This document shows positions 32,335 through 41,829 of a stretch of 48,458 nt of DNA, one piece after another (the stretch's first letter is position 1; each line of letters begins with the position of its first letter). Source of the stretch: Bacteroidota bacterium. GTDB lineage: Bacteria > Bacteroidota > Ignavibacteria > UBA10030. Location: NCBI GenBank assembly GCA_026416125.1, contig JAOAFT010000017.1, positions 1-48,458 of the forward strand, read 5' to 3'. The position numbers and the translations under genes are program-made. The notes beneath the pieces are model-generated. The model had not been told where the DNA came from. It searched no databases and was given only the letters and a program-made list of their open reading frames with translations.

Positions 32335-32356
32335 AGTGTTTAAACGAGAGACTTTA

Positions 32357-33436
32357 ATGAGAATTAGGGAAATACTCACAGCGTGTATCAATGGGAAACG
32401 AATTACACGCGACGAAGGGTTACAACTTTCTCTTGAAGCTGATATCCTTGAACTTGGTGAAGCTGCTTACGAGGTACGATTTCAAAAGAATCAACAACCA
32501 TTCGTAACCTATGTTGTGGATACAAATCCTAATTATTCAAATATCTGTACAATTGAGTGCTCGTTTTGTGCTTTCTACAAGCGAAAAGGTGAAACAGGTG
32601 CATTTACGCTTTCAGTAGAGGAACTTATAACATCTTTTAAACACGCTGCAGAACGCGGTGTGACAACAGTGCTCCTTCAAGGGGGGGTACATCCAGATTT
32701 ACCATTCGAGTACTACCTTGAATTAATTGAACGAACACGAAAAGAAGTACCGCACATTGTACCTCATTTTTTCTCACCACCAGAAATACTTGGCATTGCT
32801 CAGACTTCTGGGTTGAGCGTAGAAGAAGTGCTTCAAAAGTTTTGGTATGCCGGTCTACGAACTCTTCCTGGTGGTGGTGCTGAAATTCTCTCAGATAGGG
32901 TACGACTAAAAATAAGCTCCAAAAAAGGAAGTTCAAACGATTGGCTCATGGTGATGAGGATAGCACATCGGATTGGATATAGAACAACAGCAACAATGAT
33001 GTTTGGTCATTTTGAAGAATGGGAAGATATAATTAACCACTTGGAAGCAATACGTATACTGCAAGATGAAACTAATGGATTTATGGCATTTATTCCTTGG
33101 TCATTTAAACCTTCTAATACACCACTTGAAAAAGTAATTCCTTATCATGCTACACCACTAAAGTATCTTCGAATACTAGCTCTTGCACGTCTTTACTTGG
33201 ATAATGTTCCTCACATTCAAACATCTTGGTTTTCTGAAGGGAAAAAAATTGGTCAAATAGGATTGTACTTTGGTGCTGATGATTTTGGGGGAACGATCTT
33301 TGAGGAAAATGTGCATGCAGCTGCACAGTACTATAACAAAGCTACAGTCGATGAATGTAGGCGATTGATTCGTGAAGCTGGCTTTATTCCAGCACAGCGG
33401 AACACATTGTACAACATTCTTTCTATCGATAAATAA
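32357..33436 (+). CDS. mqnC: Cyclic dehypoxanthinyl futalosine synthase (MqnC)
   Basis: Radical SAM enzyme that cyclises dehypoxanthine futalosine in the futalosine menaquinone pathway. The 359-residue product has CxxxCxxC at Cys64, Cys68 and Cys71 (NICTIECSFCAF), LPGGGAEILSDRVR in the middle, and a C-terminal FGADDFGGTIFEENVH block. These match MqnC rather than MqnE. A GTG at 32336, two bases after the previous gene, would add seven residues; the ATG at 32357 is preferred. It ends the unit; the next feature is the promoter and RNA before porU. MqnB and MqnD are not found in the window. Confidence 0.93.
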   Translation: MRIREILTACINGKRITRDEGLQLSLEADILELGEAAYEVRFQKNQQPFVTYVVDTNPNYSNICTIECSFCAFYKRKGETGAFTLSVEELITSFKHAAERGVTTVLLQGGVHPDLPFEYYLELIERTRKEVPHIVPHFFSPPEILGIAQTSGLSVEEVLQKFWYAGLRTLPGGGAEILSDRVRLKISSKKGSSNDWLMVMRIAHRIGYRTTATMMFGHFEEWEDIINHLEAIRILQDETNGFMAFIPWSFKPSNTPLEKVIPYHATPLKYLRILALARLYLDNVPHIQTSWFSEGKKIGQIGLYFGADDFGGTIFEENVHAAAQYYNKATVDECRRLIREAGFIPAQRNTLYNILSIDK

Positions 33437-33482
33437 TAGGATCTACGTTTTAACTGTAATTGAATTCTGAAATATACGTTAC

Positions 33483-33511
33483 TTGACATTTTTTTCTTCT
33501 CTCAGTATCTT
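33483..33511 (+). promoter_or_regulatory. Strong promoter-like site upstream of the porU leader RNA
   Basis: TTGACA (33483-33488), 17 bases, then TATCTT (33506-33511). A start of transcription is expected near 33518. It lies in the 232-base gap between mqnC and porU and points toward the stem-loop and terminator that follow. Confidence 0.65.
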
Positions 33512-33512
33512 G

Positions 33513-33665
33513 GTATTTGCAATAAGGAAGGAGCAATACGTATCGAGTTTTGATAAGGTATTGAATAAACTGGAAAAGAGCTGTGCAAGTAGACCTTTTC
33601 AAACTCGATATTGTACAAGTTGAGAGTGCCAGATGAAAAGGTACCACTTTTTATCTGGCTTTTTT
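33513..33665 (+). ncRNA. Candidate structured RNA or attenuated porU leader ending in an intrinsic terminator
   Basis: About 150 bases between the promoter and porU fold into a plain series of elements. A hairpin could form between GTATTTGC (33513-33520) and GCAATAC (33533-33539), with AAGGAAGG in its loop; its 5' arm may precede the transcription start. A long stem pairs TATCGAGTTT (33541-33550) exactly with AAACTCGATA (33601-33610), and AAGGT (33555-33559) pairs with ACCTT (33593-33597) inside it. The terminator at 33628-33665 closes the unit. No open frame fills this stretch. It could be a free small RNA or a riboswitch-like leader controlling the T9SS genes. I do not recognise the class. 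Confidence 0.6.
33628..33665 (+). terminator. Intrinsic terminator directly before porU
   Basis: GCCAGAT (33628-33634) pairs with ATCTGGC (33653-33659), extended by GAAAAG (33635-33640) with CTTTTT (33647-33652), giving 13 base pairs around the loop GTACCA, followed by six T residues. It overlaps an in-frame ATG at 33633, which therefore is not the porU start. Confidence 0.9.
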
Positions 33666-33668
33666 ATT

Positions 33669-36600
33669 ATGAAACACGTAGTGGCCTATATAGTATTACT
33701 TACAACTACTGTGCAGGTTGTTCTTGCACAAAACAGTATTCCACTTAGAATTGTTCAGCAAACACCTACTTTTGTAGACATTGAATTTAATCCCTCTGTA
33801 CGGCAATCTATACGGTTAGGTTCAGATGGCAAAGAGTATGGTTGGTATGATTTTGAGTATAGCCACATAGGAGTTGACTCACGTTCTGGATTGCTTTTTT
33901 TCTATGCGATGATTCCTGTAGTACTGCCAGATTCTTTCTGCACGATTCAAATTCTAACAACGGAAAGCTTTGAAACTCAGGTACTACCACCAAACGCAGA
34001 AGCACTGGGTATATCAAGTATCCAAAAGGAATTTAAGGAAGATAGAATTGCGTGGTTTACTGACTTTTCTCACTTCCACGAGTATACAGTTGCCTCGTTG
34101 ATTTTGAGACCAGTTGAGTTTATAGATGTTTCAAGAACTCGTCTTTACACAAAATTTGTTCTTCGGATACAAAGCACAAACGGACATCTATTTGCGAACA
34201 ATCCACTTGCACTCTGTCGGTGGAATACAGGATCAGAACTTGAAGCAACAAGTACTCGTACAATAAAGAAATTGACTGGAGTACCTTCACCCTTAGCAAC
34301 TGGAACATGGTATCGTTTTACTATTCAAGAGACAGGGATATATAAACTTGATTATTCATACTTTAAAAGTCAGAATATACCTGCTACGGTATGGAATAAC
34401 ATTAATGAAATAAGAATCTATGGGAATGGTGGTATTGTTGTACCACAAAATACTGGCCAACCGTATCCAGATGATTTGCAAGAAATTGCGAGACTCGTTG
34501 TAGACAACAATAAAAATGGAACGTTTGACACCGATGATTACATTCTTTTCTATGGTGTTACACCACGTATGTGGGTATATAAAGATAAAAGTATAACGCA
34601 TGTACTCCATCCATATACAGAAACAAACAACTGCTTTCTAACATCAACGCCAGGTATACCAGGGAAGGCGATGAGTGTACTCGAGTCAATATCCTCAAAT
34701 ACTATATTTCAACCAGCCTATTTTTTAGATGGGGTTTTTGTTGAACAAGAGAAGTATAACCTTATCAAGAGCGGTCGTCGCTGGGTAGGACAACGATTCG
34801 ATGCAAATACACAGTCAGCAATTTATACAAATACGCTCTATGGAATTATCTCTTCACTACCAATTGAGTATCGTTTTGTCTTCTATGTTAGATCGTCAAC
34901 ATCAGACGCTATGACCATAACAGAAAACGGGCAAAATCTTCTCACGATCTCCTTACCGTCGATGGTTGTTAACCAATCGGATAATCAAGGGTACTATGCG
35001 CAAACACGTCAGTATTCGTTTAAGACGATTCGACAAATTCCCGATAACAGAAGTGTCGTAAAATTTCAGTACTCACCAATGAATGCAAATGGAATTGCGT
35101 GGTTGGATTGGTTTGAAATTATTTACTATCGAAGTTTTGACGCTGTAAACAACTTTTTACTGTGGTGGGGGTACGATACTACTGGGTATGTCCAATATGA
35201 AGTGAAGAATTTATCATCCGCAGACGTATATGCTTTTGATGTAACAGAACATTCAAATGTAAAAGTGATTATCGGTTTACAGACTGAACCTGCAAACCCT
35301 ACTGTTAGACGGTTCACAGTATATCAAGCGGGTGGTACAATTCGACGTTTTGCTATTGTTGGATTAAACGGTACGAAAACACCAAGTACCGCTGAACGCG
35401 TTGATAATTCCAATCTCCATGGTGTAACAGATCGTATCGATTACATTATTATTACACCAAAAGAATTCGAAACAGAAGCAAATCGGTTGAAAAACCACAG
35501 AGAAACTCGTGATACAATCAGAACATTAGTAGCAACAATTGAAGCGGTTTACAATGAATTTTCTGGTGGACTTCAAGACCCCATGGCGATTCGAAATTTC
35601 CTGAAGTATGCATATGAACGGTGGCCTACACCTCCAAAGTATGTTCTCCTATTTGGAAGTGGTCACTATGACTATAAAAATATCACGACAACTCTAAAAA
35701 ATTGGATACCTCCATTCGAAACAGATGAGTCAAATTATCAAATTATGTCGTACTGTACCGATGATTCACTCGTTCTATGGGGAAATAGTTCAAGGGTAAT
35801 GATGGGGCTTGGACGTTTACCTGTGCGAACAAAAGCACAGGCAAAAAGTGTTGTTGACAAGATTATTCGATATGAAACAGAATCTCCCTTTGATGAATGG
35901 CGTAGTCGGATTACTTTTGTAGCAGATGATGAGTTTCCAACGCGTGTAGTAGGTGATTCTGCATCAACTACGAAGGAATATTTCCATGCTGAAGACACGG
36001 AAATTCTTGCCCGTGGCTATGTTCCGGCAACAATGGAAAAGAATAAAATTTTTCTTTCACAGTATCCAGACGTCATTACTGCTGCAGGACGGCGGAAACC
36101 AGGAGCGGCAGAGGCGCTTATCACAGCTATAAACAATGGAACGTTAATATTGAACTACGCTGGTCATGGTAATGAAACAGTCTGGGCTCACGAGGAAGTG
36201 TTTTCTCAATCTTCAACGTTACCCCAATTAACAAATCAACGGATGCTACTTCTCCTCATTGCTGCAACGTGTGACTTTGCTTTGTACGATGATCCTTCTG
36301 TGTTCAGTGCTGGAGAAGAATTTGTCACAATGGCAAATGGTGGAGCGATTGTAGGTATTTCTGCTGCTCGACCAGTCTATGCAAATCAGAACATTGCTCT
36401 CAACCGTGAAATACTTAGGCAATTGTTTTTACGTGATACATATGGGAATGTTCCAAGGATTGGCGATGTAATAAAGACAGTAAAGCAGTTCTATAACACA
36501 GTAAATGACAAAAAATACCATCTCTTTGGCGATCCAACTCTTCGTATTTTAATTCCGCGATACACTGTTGCAGTTGACTCTATTAATGATGAAAGTCCAA

Positions 36601-37616
36601 CGTCACTAGTTACGGTTAAAGCACTTGGAAAAATAAGAATAGCAAGTTCAGTACGAAGTAAAGATTCAAGTATTATTGAATCTTACAATGGCGATGCCAT
36701 AGTAAAGATTTATGGACCAACAAGGGTACTTCGATTTAATAATTGGCCGAAGTCCGATTCATTCCTTGTACATGGGGCAATTCTTTACAGTGGGAAAGTA
36801 TCAGTGCGGAATGGTACTATGATGGCGTTAGCACGTCTTCCTAAAGATGTCGTTATGGGAAATAATGCACGACTTGCAGTCTACTGTTGGGATAACAACA
36901 TAGATGGTATAGGTGTGACAGAAAACATTCTTATCAACGATATCGATACATCAGATGTCAGTGACTCGAGAGGACCCCAAGTCACAGTTTACTTTGATAA
37001 TGAGATGTTTCGAAATGGCGATGTTGTACCACAAACAACGAGGCTCATCGTACGAGTAGAAGATGAAAGTGGTGTTAATACATCAGTTCTTGGTATTGGA
37101 CATGGGCTCCGGGCATCCCTTGAACGACCACCCTCAGTAATTGATCTCAGTTCGTACTACAAGAATGATCGTGATACGTACCAACGTGGCGAAGCTCAAT
37201 ATGTACTACGAAATTTACCATTAGGGAAAAATTCTATCCGTGTAAAAGCTTGGGATATTCACAATAACTCAAGTGAAGTAGAGGTTGCATTTGAGGTTGT
37301 TGAGTATTCAAAAACAGAGATTACACGGATTAACAATTACCCAAATCCGTTTTCACAAAGTACATTCTTTACTTTTCAACGGAGTTCGGGTGATCCAATT
37401 GCAATTGAAATTAAAATATATACCCTCGCGGGTCGTCTTGTGAGAACTCTCTCTCTACCGGTTTTTACAGAACGGTACGGACGGATACTATGGGATGGGT
37501 ACGATACACATGGTGATAACGTTGCGAATGGTATTTATATATACAAAATTATTACAAAGGATTTGATAACGAATGATACTAAAGAATACATAGGGAAACT
37601 AGCACGTGTTCAATAA
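33669..37616 (+). CDS. porU: T9SS signal peptidase-like protein PorU (C25 family)
   Basis: PorU is a gingipain-family cysteine peptidase on the cell surface that removes the C-terminal sorting domain of T9SS cargo and joins cargo to the surface. The 1315-residue product begins with a signal peptide (MKHVVAYIVLLTTTVQVVLAQ). The C25 domain spans about residues 585-965, with catalytic His833 (NYAGHGNE) and Cys868 (AATCDF). The last 90 residues, from NNYPNPF near 1222 and with LAGRLVRTL, are themselves a T9SS sorting domain, as in known PorU. The start is taken as ATG 33669, just after the terminator; no ribosome site is clear. porV follows 42 bases downstream. Confidence 0.9.
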   Translation: MKHVVAYIVLLTTTVQVVLAQNSIPLRIVQQTPTFVDIEFNPSVRQSIRLGSDGKEYGWYDFEYSHIGVDSRSGLLFFYAMIPVVLPDSFCTIQILTTESFETQVLPPNAEALGISSIQKEFKEDRIAWFTDFSHFHEYTVASLILRPVEFIDVSRTRLYTKFVLRIQSTNGHLFANNPLALCRWNTGSELEATSTRTIKKLTGVPSPLATGTWYRFTIQETGIYKLDYSYFKSQNIPATVWNNINEIRIYGNGGIVVPQNTGQPYPDDLQEIARLVVDNNKNGTFDTDDYILFYGVTPRMWVYKDKSITHVLHPYTETNNCFLTSTPGIPGKAMSVLESISSNTIFQPAYFLDGVFVEQEKYNLIKSGRRWVGQRFDANTQSAIYTNTLYGIISSLPIEYRFVFYVRSSTSDAMTITENGQNLLTISLPSMVVNQSDNQGYYAQTRQYSFKTIRQIPDNRSVVKFQYSPMNANGIAWLDWFEIIYYRSFDAVNNFLLWWGYDTTGYVQYEVKNLSSADVYAFDVTEHSNVKVIIGLQTEPANPTVRRFTVYQAGGTIRRFAIVGLNGTKTPSTAERVDNSNLHGVTDRIDYIIITPKEFETEANRLKNHRETRDTIRTLVATIEAVYNEFSGGLQDPMAIRNFLKYAYERWPTPPKYVLLFGSGHYDYKNITTTLKNWIPPFETDESNYQIMSYCTDDSLVLWGNSSRVMMGLGRLPVRTKAQAKSVVDKIIRYETESPFDEWRSRITFVADDEFPTRVVGDSASTTKEYFHAEDTEILARGYVPATMEKNKIFLSQYPDVITAAGRRKPGAAEALITAINNGTLILNYAGHGNETVWAHEEVFSQSSTLPQLTNQRMLLLLIAATCDFALYDDPSVFSAGEEFVTMANGGAIVGISAARPVYANQNIALNREILRQLFLRDTYGNVPRIGDVIKTVKQFYNTVNDKKYHLFGDPTLRILIPRYTVAVDSINDESPTSLVTVKALGKIRIASSVRSKDSSIIESYNGDAIVKIYGPTRVLRFNNWPKSDSFLVHGAILYSGKVSVRNGTMMALARLPKDVVMGNNARLAVYCWDNNIDGIGVTENILINDIDTSDVSDSRGPQVTVYFDNEMFRNGDVVPQTTRLIVRVEDESGVNTSVLGIGHGLRASLERPPSVIDLSSYYKNDRDTYQRGEAQYVLRNLPLGKNSIRVKAWDIHNNSSEVEVAFEVVEYSKTEITRINNYPNPFSQSTFFTFQRSSGDPIAIEIKIYTLAGRLVRTLSLPVFTERYGRILWDGYDTHGDNVANGIYIYKIITKDLITNDTKEYIGKLARVQ

Positions 37617-37658: not shown

Positions 37659-38768
37659 ATGCAGAAAATTCTTTTAATTGTAATTATAACAATTCTATGT
37701 TTATCAGTTCTCCCAGCCCAAGAACTACAAACAACAGCGGTACCATTTCTCCTTATTGCTCCGAATTCGCGGGCAAGTGCCATGGGAGAAAGTGGTGTTG
37801 CAACAGCAGATGATGCATGGGCTATTTTTTGGAATCCTGCTGGATATGCTTTCCAAAAGGGTTCAGAAATTTCGATGTCACATGCGAACTGGCTTCCTGC
37901 TCTAGGCTTATCCGATTTATGGATTGCCCACCTCGTTTATAAGCAACCGGTTGAAGAATTGGATGGTATTGTAGCTGCATCGGTAACCTACGAAAACCTT
38001 GGTGAGTTTCAACGCACCCTCAATGACCCAACACCAATTGGTACATTCAAAGGATATGAAGCAGCACTTACACTTGGTTATAGCACAAAATTATCTAAAA
38101 CAGTAGGTATTGGTGTAAATACAAGAATTATTTACAGTCACTTAGCGGACAAAGGAACCGGTGAAGAAGCAGGGCGTGGTACTGCCACAGGATTCAGTTT
38201 CGATGTTGGGTTACTCTATAAACCAGAGCATGTTCTCATTCCATTCACAGGTATTGATTTGCAGAATGCGTTAAGTATTGGAGTCAATATTTCAAATATT
38301 GGTCCAAATATATATTACGTTGACAAAGAACAGGCAGATCCATTACCTCAAAATTTACGTTTTGGAGTTGCGTTTAATATTCTTAATGATGAGTACAATT
38401 CGTTAACAACTTCTCTTGAATTCAACAGACTTCTTGTGAATCGAGATACCTCTGCCAAAAAAGCCGACGAGTTCTACAAAGCGTTCTATACTACGTGGAC
38501 TGGCGGTTCATTGGCTCAACAACTTAGACGTTTCACAACTGCTGTAGGTATTGAGTATTGGTATGGATCACCGAAGCTCATCGCACTCCGTGCTGGATAC
38601 TTTTATGAGGATCCCCGCGCCGGTAATCGTAAGTTTATGACATTTGGTGCCGGAATTCGGTACGATATTTACGGATTCGATTTCAGCTACATTAGTACAG
38701 CCGAAGAGCAACACCCACTCGGGGAAACATTACGTTTTACATTGTCGATAGGTTGGGGTGGTGAGTAA
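37659..38768 (+). CDS. porV: T9SS outer-membrane protein PorV
   Basis: PorV is a FadL-like barrel that receives T9SS cargo from the translocon and works with PorU on the surface. The 369-residue product has a signal peptide (MQKILLIVIITILCLSVLPAQ) and the family start TTAVPFLLIAPNSRASAMGESGVA, followed by DDAWAIFWNPAGYA. Repeated beta strands end in an aromatic-rich barrel end (LRFTLSIGWGG). AAGGAG lies nine bases before the ATG. Its stop overlaps the GTG start of the M6-like gene by about 11 bases, so PorV and its neighbour are coupled. Confidence 0.93.
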   Translation: MQKILLIVIITILCLSVLPAQELQTTAVPFLLIAPNSRASAMGESGVATADDAWAIFWNPAGYAFQKGSEISMSHANWLPALGLSDLWIAHLVYKQPVEELDGIVAASVTYENLGEFQRTLNDPTPIGTFKGYEAALTLGYSTKLSKTVGIGVNTRIIYSHLADKGTGEEAGRGTATGFSFDVGLLYKPEHVLIPFTGIDLQNALSIGVNISNIGPNIYYVDKEQADPLPQNLRFGVAFNILNDEYNSLTTSLEFNRLLVNRDTSAKKADEFYKAFYTTWTGGSLAQQLRRFTTAVGIEYWYGSPKLIALRAGYFYEDPRAGNRKFMTFGAGIRYDIYGFDFSYISTAEEQHPLGETLRFTLSIGWGGE

Positions 38769-41700
38769 ATCAATTACTGGTAGAGTAGAGAGTGTAGTGA
38801 AAGTCGCTATCACAATGTGTGTTATCCTATCTTCTTTAGCAGTGGCGCAAACATCATTGCCACAGCTAATGAAAAAGAATGTACCATCAGGGCAAGTATT
38901 ACTCCAACGTTCGTCAATAAACATATTTGCACTTATGGTTCAATTTCAAAAAGATGATGATCCGCGTACGACAGGAGATGGTACATTTCTTACTACTGAA
39001 AAACGTATTGGCGTTATTGATCCTCCGCCACACGATTCAAATTACTTTTCAAATAAAATACGCTTCCAACAGAATTACTTTTCTAAAGTTTCCAATAACC
39101 ATCTTACAATTGTAGGTACTGTTTGGGGTAAAGTTCTTACACTCTCCAAGCCAATGTCGGCATACGCACCACCAACTGATCGAGATGACTACCAAAAACT
39201 TATCGAATGTATTACTGAAAGCTGGCGAATGGCTGATTCATTATATCCTGAAATTGATTTTAGCCAATACGATGCCTTTGTTATTTTCCATGCTGGTACT
39301 GGGCGAGATATCGACTTGGTGAATCTTCTAGGGTATAATCCAACACCCTATGATCTCCCTTCACTCTTTGTCGATTCAACTCTTTTTGCAAAGTCATTGA
39401 ATCAAAATACTTTCAATGGAATTCCGGTCGATAGCGGAACTGTGCGCATTAAACACACAATCTTTTTACCAGAAACCGAGTCAAGAATCCTTCCAACAAG
39501 CCCACCAGAAACATTGCAGTTGAGCATCAATGGGTTGTTTGCAGGTATGATAGGTAGTTTCTTGGGGTTACCCGATCTTTTTGATACGAAAACCGGTCGT
39601 TCTGGTATAGGTCAATTTGGGTTAATGGATGGTGCTGGTATGTTTGCCTACAGCGGACTTTTTCCACCAGAACCATCTGCTTGGGAAAAGATAGAACTAG
39701 GGTGGGTAGTTCCTCTTACTATTCAGCGCTCATCAACAATAACGCTTTTTTCTGGTAATAGACGAAATAATATCACAGGAACTATCATTAAAGTACCAAT
39801 TAGTGATACTGAATATTTTCTACTCGAAAACAGAAGTAGAGATCCAGATGATAATGGACAAACAGTCACTGTAGTTGATCAGTTCGGAAGAGAAAGAAAT
39901 ATATACTTTAGAAAAGATACAATAGGTTTTAACCAGTACGATGTTTCTGCTATCCATGGTTCAGTAGTTGATGTTGAGGACTTTGACTGGGCACTACCTG
40001 GATACATCGATTCTACTCATTATTACGATGGTGGTGGGATTCTCATTTGGCATATTGATGATAGAATTATAAAACAAAATCGAGAAACAAATACAGTCAA
40101 TGCTACTAGATCTGCAAAAGGTGTTCGACTAATGGAAGCAGATGGTTCTCAAGATATCGGACAACAGTATGGACAATATACAGCTGGTGCGGGGACTGAG
40201 TATGGAAGCCCACTCGATTGTTGGTACAAAGAAAATCGAGCACCGTTTTATAAAAATCAATTTGATGGTACAACATATCCAAATTCAAACAGTAATACTG
40301 GTGCGAAAAGTTTAATTGCAATACGGAATTTTAGTAGTCGTTCCCCAATCATGACCTGTGAAGTGGAAATTGGAATAATCGGAGTAACTCCAATCGATAA
40401 ATTAACGCGTTCTTTCAAAATAGGGAGAGCAATTGCTGTTCAGGATTCATTTATTTTCCTATTAGCTGATTCTTTACTATATCTTTTGAAAACCAGTGGT
40501 GATTCCGCTGTCCAGTCGTACAAGGGAGCACTATCCACAAATAGTAAAGCTCAAGATATAGCTGCAAAATTTCTAACACAAAACATTTTGCTTGTGGTTT
40601 CATCAGGTGGTTCGGATATAACTTTACAGAAACTTTATGATACAAATAACGACGGAGTATTTGAGAGTTGGGATGTCAGTTCATGGTCTCTTCGATCTTC
40701 AGAGGTTACAACAACGCCGGTAATATTTGAAAACTCAAATAGTACACTTGTTTTGGTTGGAGATTCGAGAGGGTGTCTCTGGTTTTTCGACACGAGTGGT
40801 GTTTGTAGAGATTCTCTAATCGTTGCTCATTTGCCTATTACGTCGTTAATGGTACTAGATACCATGTGGTATGCGTGTGCAGGTAATACTGTTTATTGTA
40901 AAACTCATTCTGTAGTTACGGGGTTACAGAATACTTCATGTATACTCGTTGGTCTTAAGGAGCACGGGTCGTCATATCTTGCCGTTACAACTAGAGGGTC
41001 TAATGCACTTCAAATATATACAAGTGATCTTCGTACACTTCGTTGGAGTGGAGTTCTTCCCGTTGATAGTATTGGTGCAATTGTTGCAGGTGATATAAAC
41101 TCAGATGGTTTCACAGAAATACTTATAAGTGGTGGCAATAAACTAGTAGCAATTAGTACCAATGGTGCGATAGCAGAACATTACCCTATTGAACTTTTCG
41201 ATGGGAGCCTCTTTGCAGAATCTCCTTTACTTATAGATTGTACGAATGATGATATTCCTGAAATTATTACTTCAACATCACGGGGAAGTATCGTGGTTTA
41301 CAATTCTGTTGGGAACATTTTAAATGGTTATCCTTTCCAAGTTGCATCTGAAAGTGCACAGCTTGTCGTGGGAAATATTCAAAATCATATTGCACTGTGT
41401 GCTTTTACAGAAAATGGTTATTTAACAGGAATTAAAATCGAACAACCCTGTCCAAAGTTAGAAACATACTGGACACAACGGTATCGAAATTCGCAGCGAA
41501 TAAATGCAACAGATCAACCAACAACACAGATACGTCGGTATAGTACGTTTTTTCCTGAGGAACGTGTTTACAATTGGCCAAATCCTGTGTATGGGAATCG
41601 AACATATATCAGGTACTACATATCGGAAGATGCTGATATAAACGTGAAAATTTTTGACTTGGCTGGTACATCCGTTACAACAATAAAAAGTAAAGGATAT

Positions 41701-41829
41701 GGCGGATACGACAATGAAATTGTCTGGGATGTTACGCACATTCAGAGCGGTATTTATTTTGCCCACATCGAAGCACGAAGCCCACAGTACACAGCTTCAA
41801 AAGTGATTAAAATTGCAGTAGTAAAATGA
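38758..41829 (+). CDS. T9SS-sorted M6-like peptidase homologue lacking the zinc-binding motif
   Basis: A 1023-residue secreted protein with a signal segment (VVKVAITMCVILSSLAVAQ), an M6 (immune inhibitor A-like) domain to about residue 470, FG-GAP/VCBS-like repeats (VAGDINSDGFTEILISGG) and a T9SS sorting domain from YNWPNPVYGNRTYIRY near 945 to the end. Active M6 enzymes carry HExxH followed by xxGLPDLYD. Here the same place reads AGMIGSFLGLPDLFD (residues 262-275): His, Glu and second His are Gly263, Met264 and Ser267, so zinc binding is not expected. Start codon GTG 38758 or 38761. The protein is probably a binding or structural pseudo-enzyme. Confidence 0.85.
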   Translation: MVSKSITGRVESVVKVAITMCVILSSLAVAQTSLPQLMKKNVPSGQVLLQRSSINIFALMVQFQKDDDPRTTGDGTFLTTEKRIGVIDPPPHDSNYFSNKIRFQQNYFSKVSNNHLTIVGTVWGKVLTLSKPMSAYAPPTDRDDYQKLIECITESWRMADSLYPEIDFSQYDAFVIFHAGTGRDIDLVNLLGYNPTPYDLPSLFVDSTLFAKSLNQNTFNGIPVDSGTVRIKHTIFLPETESRILPTSPPETLQLSINGLFAGMIGSFLGLPDLFDTKTGRSGIGQFGLMDGAGMFAYSGLFPPEPSAWEKIELGWVVPLTIQRSSTITLFSGNRRNNITGTIIKVPISDTEYFLLENRSRDPDDNGQTVTVVDQFGRERNIYFRKDTIGFNQYDVSAIHGSVVDVEDFDWALPGYIDSTHYYDGGGILIWHIDDRIIKQNRETNTVNATRSAKGVRLMEADGSQDIGQQYGQYTAGAGTEYGSPLDCWYKENRAPFYKNQFDGTTYPNSNSNTGAKSLIAIRNFSSRSPIMTCEVEIGIIGVTPIDKLTRSFKIGRAIAVQDSFIFLLADSLLYLLKTSGDSAVQSYKGALSTNSKAQDIAAKFLTQNILLVVSSGGSDITLQKLYDTNNDGVFESWDVSSWSLRSSEVTTTPVIFENSNSTLVLVGDSRGCLWFFDTSGVCRDSLIVAHLPITSLMVLDTMWYACAGNTVYCKTHSVVTGLQNTSCILVGLKEHGSSYLAVTTRGSNALQIYTSDLRTLRWSGVLPVDSIGAIVAGDINSDGFTEILISGGNKLVAISTNGAIAEHYPIELFDGSLFAESPLLIDCTNDDIPEIITSTSRGSIVVYNSVGNILNGYPFQVASESAQLVVGNIQNHIALCAFTENGYLTGIKIEQPCPKLETYWTQRYRNSQRINATDQPTTQIRRYSTFFPEERVYNWPNPVYGNRTYIRYYISEDADINVKIFDLAGTSVTTIKSKGYGGYDNEIVWDVTHIQSGIYFAHIEARSPQYTASKVIKIAVVK

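Follow-up and report, generated by a model that had tools for sequence, protein, structure and literature searches.

Transcription-terminating riboswitch platforms, attenuators of amino-acid operons and protein-controlled anti-antiterminator leaders are the described systems closest to the leader upstream of porU reported here, and the features compared are general knowledge. Riboswitch platforms of this kind use mutually exclusive terminator and antiterminator structures, with one strand common to the antiterminator and a stem upstream of it; the porU leader is built alike but shows neither a conserved aptamer core nor a match to an Rfam riboswitch. Attenuators of the trp and his type follow a three-pairing logic (1:2, 2:3, 3:4) that the porU leader shares, whereas it shows no convincing conserved leader peptide and its target is a secretion operon. 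PyrR-type leaders likewise have three exclusive structures, with a stable stem further upstream that favours termination; in contrast, the conserved sequence of the porU leader lies in the long stem, and Rfam gives no match. The target itself belongs to type IX secretion, which exports surface enzymes, adhesins and the gliding machinery of Bacteroidota and whose control of expression has, to our knowledge, been little explored except in a few model species.

Lineage-restricted candidate RNAs such as Chlorobi-1, Chlorobi-RRM, SAM-Chlorobi and Lnt have been described (PMC2864571). Like the porU leader, these are structured RNAs derived from comparison, several of them cis-regulatory candidates (PMC2864571); unlike them, the porU leaders score below Rfam gathering thresholds, and porU is absent from that study (PMC2864571). 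In Rfam 15, no leader reached a gathering score and permissive searches returned nothing relevant, in agreement with a preliminary description of this DNA, which had recognized no known RNA class. In the open-licence literature, no prior report was found that connects porU or type IX secretion with a riboswitch, a leader RNA or a candidate RNA.

In the window (the whole stretch of 48,458 nucleotides that was analysed), the gap between mqnC (32336-33436; TIGR03699 above its cut-off) and porU spans 33437-33668, and its part from 33483 onward carries a promoter followed by a long stem (P1), an inner region and an intrinsic terminator (Table 1). Transcription is expected to start near 33518. The core of P1, UAUCGAGUUU/AAACUCGAUA, is the perfect 10-bp pairing of 33541-33550 with 33601-33610 that the preliminary description had pointed out, exact in sequence, and it extends both inward (GA/UC, AAGGU/ACCUU) and outward (UAC/GUA). 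The promoter and the 13-bp terminator named there are also found as described, the terminator stem ending nine bases, and its T-run three bases, before the porU ATG. In many relatives GGAAGGAG is part of an outer P1 helix, and the insert contains a hairpin, P2, that is not evident in the window.

Table 1. Features of the porU leader and of the genes that it precedes, in window coordinates.
Feature	Position	Strand	Details and basis
Promoter (TTGACA, 17-base spacer, TATCTT)	33483-33488 and 33506-33511	+	Consensus scan; conserved in homologous leaders
GGAAGGAG, conserved GGAG-like stretch, 5' side of P1	33526-33533	+	
Strand 1, 5' strand of P1, UACGUAUCGAGUUUUGAUAAGGUAU	33537-33561	+	Fold and covariation
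Variable insert between the P1 strands	33562-33592	+	Comparison of leaders
Strand 2, 3' strand of P1, ACCUUUUCAAACUCGAUAUUGUA	33593-33615	+	Fold, covariation, partner-swap test
Strand 3, 5' arm of terminator with loop edge	33628-33642	+	Terminator scan, partner-swap test
Intrinsic terminator	33628-33665	+	13-bp stem 33628-33640/33647-33659, loop of 6, U-run 33660-33665
porU, type IX secretion sortase, target gene	33669-37616	+	NF033707, 907 bits; Peptidase_C25, 306 bits
porV, type IX secretion outer-membrane protein	37659-38768	+	NF033710, 274 bits, above cut-off

The leader folds at -46.6 kcal/mol, compared with a shuffled mean of -30.2 kcal/mol (z -4.4; 0 of 200 shuffles). Taken singly, neither promoter-like sites (7 found, 6.0 expected) nor terminator-like sites (3 found, 1.2 expected) are notable; it is their arrangement, together with conservation, that raises the leader above chance. 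In a blastn search of 100 relatives, the gap found only itself, no other genome of the same genus being among those listed. Despite this silence, the gaps upstream of porU in relatives hold a clearly homologous leader, with a shared order of promoter, GGAG, UAUCGAAG-UUUGUUAAAGGUU, variable insert with hairpin, CAAGCCUUUAUCAAAUUCGGU, GCCGAAU...UUCGGC terminator and ATG. The structured RNA is thus invisible to blastn and Rfam and plain once orthologous gaps are compared.

A covariance model built from 15 leaders (R1) finds one locus in its own genome and matches 59 of the 98 genomes of the order, with one or two matches per genome. Nearly all of the matched places (57 of 63) lie on the porU strand and 5' of porU, at most 0.75 kb from the first aligned PorU residue. 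E-values come from a shortened calibration and the search filters overlook weak matches; in fact, with the filters off, most porU-upstream stretches from the missed genomes of the order match too. A second model, of 65 leaders (R2), adds families f12, f17, f9 and f13 of the class, where the leader stands before porU in those read, the exceptions being L215, whose downstream gene either was truncated at the contig end or did not align, and f13, with porU further down. A P1-only model (R3) adds f20, which brings the further families of the class to five. A promoter of the same type stands at the same place before 62 of the 65 leaders, its spacer being 17 bases long in 61, and the median distance from the model end to the first ATG is 7 bases. 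With a leader in nearly all relatives examined, the RNA probably controls their main protein-secretion system. In a phylum-wide sample, matches outside the class were ordinary GCCGAAU-type terminators or chance, none near porU. Two weak second matches in genus g9 (L171, L173) were also set aside as ordinary terminators or chance.

The preliminary description had proposed covariation in homologous gaps as a check, to be refuted by a lack of compensatory changes; this check did not refute it, since such changes are present in all three pairings: P1 (1:2), the terminator (3:4) and an antiterminator (2:3). RNAalifold, applied to a MAFFT alignment (A1), recovers P1 and the terminator unguided. When the structure is imposed on an unfitted alignment (A2), 16 pairs have changed on both sides, compared with 8.8 in shuffles (0 of 500), and 41 cells compared with 13.8; sliding the partners by one column lowers pairing from 85 to 50 per cent.

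The antiterminator had been missed in the preliminary description. The terminator's 5' arm and loop have, in many species, a striking complement in the 3' strand of P1, as in L143 and L145 (ACCUUUAACAU/AUGUUAAAGGU, 11 bp), L164 (CCUUUAACGU/ACGUUAAAGG, 10 bp), L142 (GACAAGC/GCUUGUC) and L215 (GUAGACCUUU/AAAGGUCUGC). A partner-swap test, which scores duplex energies of true and swapped partners and not alignment columns, gave -12.7 kcal/mol for true and -9.0 kcal/mol for swapped partners over 38 genera (z -8.7; 0 of 5000), with |z| at most 1.4 for the controls (strand 1 with terminator, insert with terminator, and linker). Restricting swaps to within families left z at -5.1 (0 of 10,000), and no control exceeded |z| 1.5. 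Test segments and controls alike were cut from A4, a model-fitted alignment, and single-species shuffle tests were significant in only 21 of the 38 genera. In the window, ACCUUUUCA at 33593-33601, the part of strand 2 that doubles as the 5' side of the antiterminator, pairs with UGAAAAGGU at 33634-33642 in strand 3, and AAGU (33587-33590) pairs with ACUU (33646-33649); the energy of the antiterminator pairing is -12.5 kcal/mol (p about 0.02 against shuffles). Comparison thus supports a mutually exclusive antiterminator, and the intrinsic terminator sits between the promoter and the first gene.

Pairings 1:2, 2:3 and 3:4 make up the scheme of a transcription attenuator, and we consider it likely that the leader attenuates transcription of the porU-porV operon in cis, with a three-pairing design and an off default. 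In the proposed mechanism, strand 1 would pair with strand 2 into P1 once strand 2 is made, leaving strand 3 free to form the terminator, and RNA polymerase would halt just before the porU start codon. If strand 1 were held, or the alternative stabilised, strands 2 and 3 would pair, no terminator would form and porU-porV would be transcribed; a trans-acting signal, be it a protein, an RNA or a small molecule, would set the switch. In computed equilibrium folding of the growing RNA of the window, P1 has formed by the time the RNA reaches 33612, and the terminator by 33657; unaided, the RNA should therefore terminate. At full length, about 14 kcal/mol separate the antiterminator state (-30.6 kcal/mol) from the more stable combination of P1 and terminator (-44.7 kcal/mol), and with strand 1 blocked in the computation the antiterminator state is only transient, reaching a probability of 0.54 at 33642 and falling to near 0 after the terminator is complete. 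Consequently, switching would require a factor or control by kinetics. With only a few bases between the end of the terminator and the ATG, transcripts from the leader promoter have to read through it to reach porU; the short terminator-ATG gap of the relatives leaves no room for another porU promoter. We infer a working terminator, an off default and an operon reaching porV. A deeply conserved attenuator in this place suggests that the decision to make the sortase is taken during transcript elongation. A hairpin inside strand 1 that would favour the on state was rejected, its covariation being weak (z -2.5 within families) and its stability no greater than that of shuffles (mean z +0.2).

Two more specific versions of such control concern what acts on P1. 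As a sub-case of the attenuator, the leader could be a metabolite-binding riboswitch, in which P1 and the insert form an aptamer and the ligand sets P1 stability. The strand-exchange design, the placement and the lineage-wide tie to one gene are typical of riboswitch candidates, whereas the insert, at about 20 to about 90 bases, is variable in length and has little sequence in common between leaders, a variability that speaks against an ordinary aptamer; no sensor domain can be made out in it, the leaders show no conserved aptamer core across their inserts of varying length and sequence, Rfam riboswitch matches are absent, and the conserved part is a plain helix. We regard a riboswitch as unlikely, though not negligibly so; a small aptamer core could conceivably be hidden in P1. 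In leader-peptide attenuation, a ribosome on a short ORF over strand 1 would free strand 2 for the antiterminator. The 1:2, 2:3, 3:4 scheme fits, GGAG lies upstream, in most leaders from the order, strand 1 contains a UUG that opens frames of 4-37 codons, and some ATG, GTG or TTG frame is present in 61 of 65. Yet ATG or GTG frames occur in only 12 of 65, the frames vary in length and content, the UUG lies about 13-17 bases from GGAG (in the window no start codon stands at the usual distance from GGAAGGAG) and has become UUC in families f12, f9, f20 and f6, and the target genes are not biosynthetic; this reading is very improbable.

The RNA might instead work apart from porU, or not at all. The preliminary description had left a choice between a small RNA and a riboswitch or attenuator; compensatory changes and porU linkage speak for the attenuator branch, and a free small RNA becomes less likely because a further porU promoter would not fit between the terminator and the gene. 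A small RNA of about 150 bases that stands alone and merely adjoins porU would account for the leader having its own promoter and terminator and for the U-run that follows P1 in families f5, f20 and f24. It would account poorly for the linkage to porU over many families, while the neighbour mqnC is not beside porU in other loci read, and for antiterminator covariation, which has no role in a free RNA; nor is it 6S RNA, the 6S candidate of this genome being on contig C6. We judge it improbable. That terminator and stem are an accident without function, as the near-expected numbers of single sites and the lack of a blastn relative might suggest, is contradicted by the covariance-model matches and by the fold energy and the order-wide conservation with covariation, and we give it hardly any credence.

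For the attenuator that we prefer, the conserved part of the leader offers a pointer to the trigger. It is paired as UUAAAGGUU/CCUUUAAC, and conservation of this pairing suggests recognition by a protein or RNA; some of it is due to the double role in P1 and antiterminator. As a first guess, the candidate trigger would be a sequence-specific binder of this stem, and the leader is a compact handle for finding the signal. We entertain, with somewhat less than even confidence, that the leaders are sensory RNAs of a new class, found within one class-level group of Bacteroidota, which would tie expression of the sortase and PorV to a cellular signal, in some genomes together with a PorV-family gene and in others with Rieske and YceI genes. 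If so, no RNA switch controlling type IX secretion would have been known before it, as far as our searches show.

The longest porU ORF opens at an ATG at 33633, within the terminator, and the signal peptide and relatives point to the ATG at 33669 as the start. The 42 bases between porU and porV make porV the probable second gene of the controlled operon. A gene for a T9SS-dependent M6-like inactivated metalloprotease (38758-41829; NF052323, 836 bits) begins inside the end of porV, which suggests a porU-porV-M6i operon, and the leader probably affects the whole cluster. We note that MqnC has its best named-genome matches in Elusimicrobia (55-60 per cent identity) and Dadabacteria, and that in none of the other loci read was mqnC found next to porU; horizontal transfer of mqnC is possible.

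Further copies and variants were seen among the relatives. In G002 and G012 of family f1, a similar leader precedes a PorV/PorQ-family gene (L227/L243 and L283, respectively; L227 at 1052-1176, L283 at 975-1101), the G002 gene being assigned to PorVQ2 below its cut-off; these second leaders hint at a small T9SS regulon. In genus g152 (family f24), a hairpin that resembles P1, contains GUUAAA(A/G)G and closes with a U-run precedes a membrane-protein/YceI gene pair and a Rieske protein (L223 1241-1338, L224 851-942, L228 975-1068, L261, L262, L264), and P1 itself looks like the terminator there. On weaker scores, the f1 and f24 copies hint at a wider regulon. Upstream of porU in G131 (family f20; L245, 1500-1650), the P1 stem closes with a U-run immediately followed by a likely TTG start, and a single hairpin seems to serve as both P1 and terminator. 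In L003 and L030, the insert inside P1 holds an extra hairpin followed by a U-run, resembling an earlier second terminator or a pause site. Finally, 6S RNA (RF00013), which has no match in the window, has a sub-threshold candidate elsewhere in the genome (G000, contig C6, 11087-11341; 37 bits, E 5.8e-6); similar candidates occur in 11 of 30 relatives, and 6S RNA in this lineage seems to have diverged from what the Rfam model describes.
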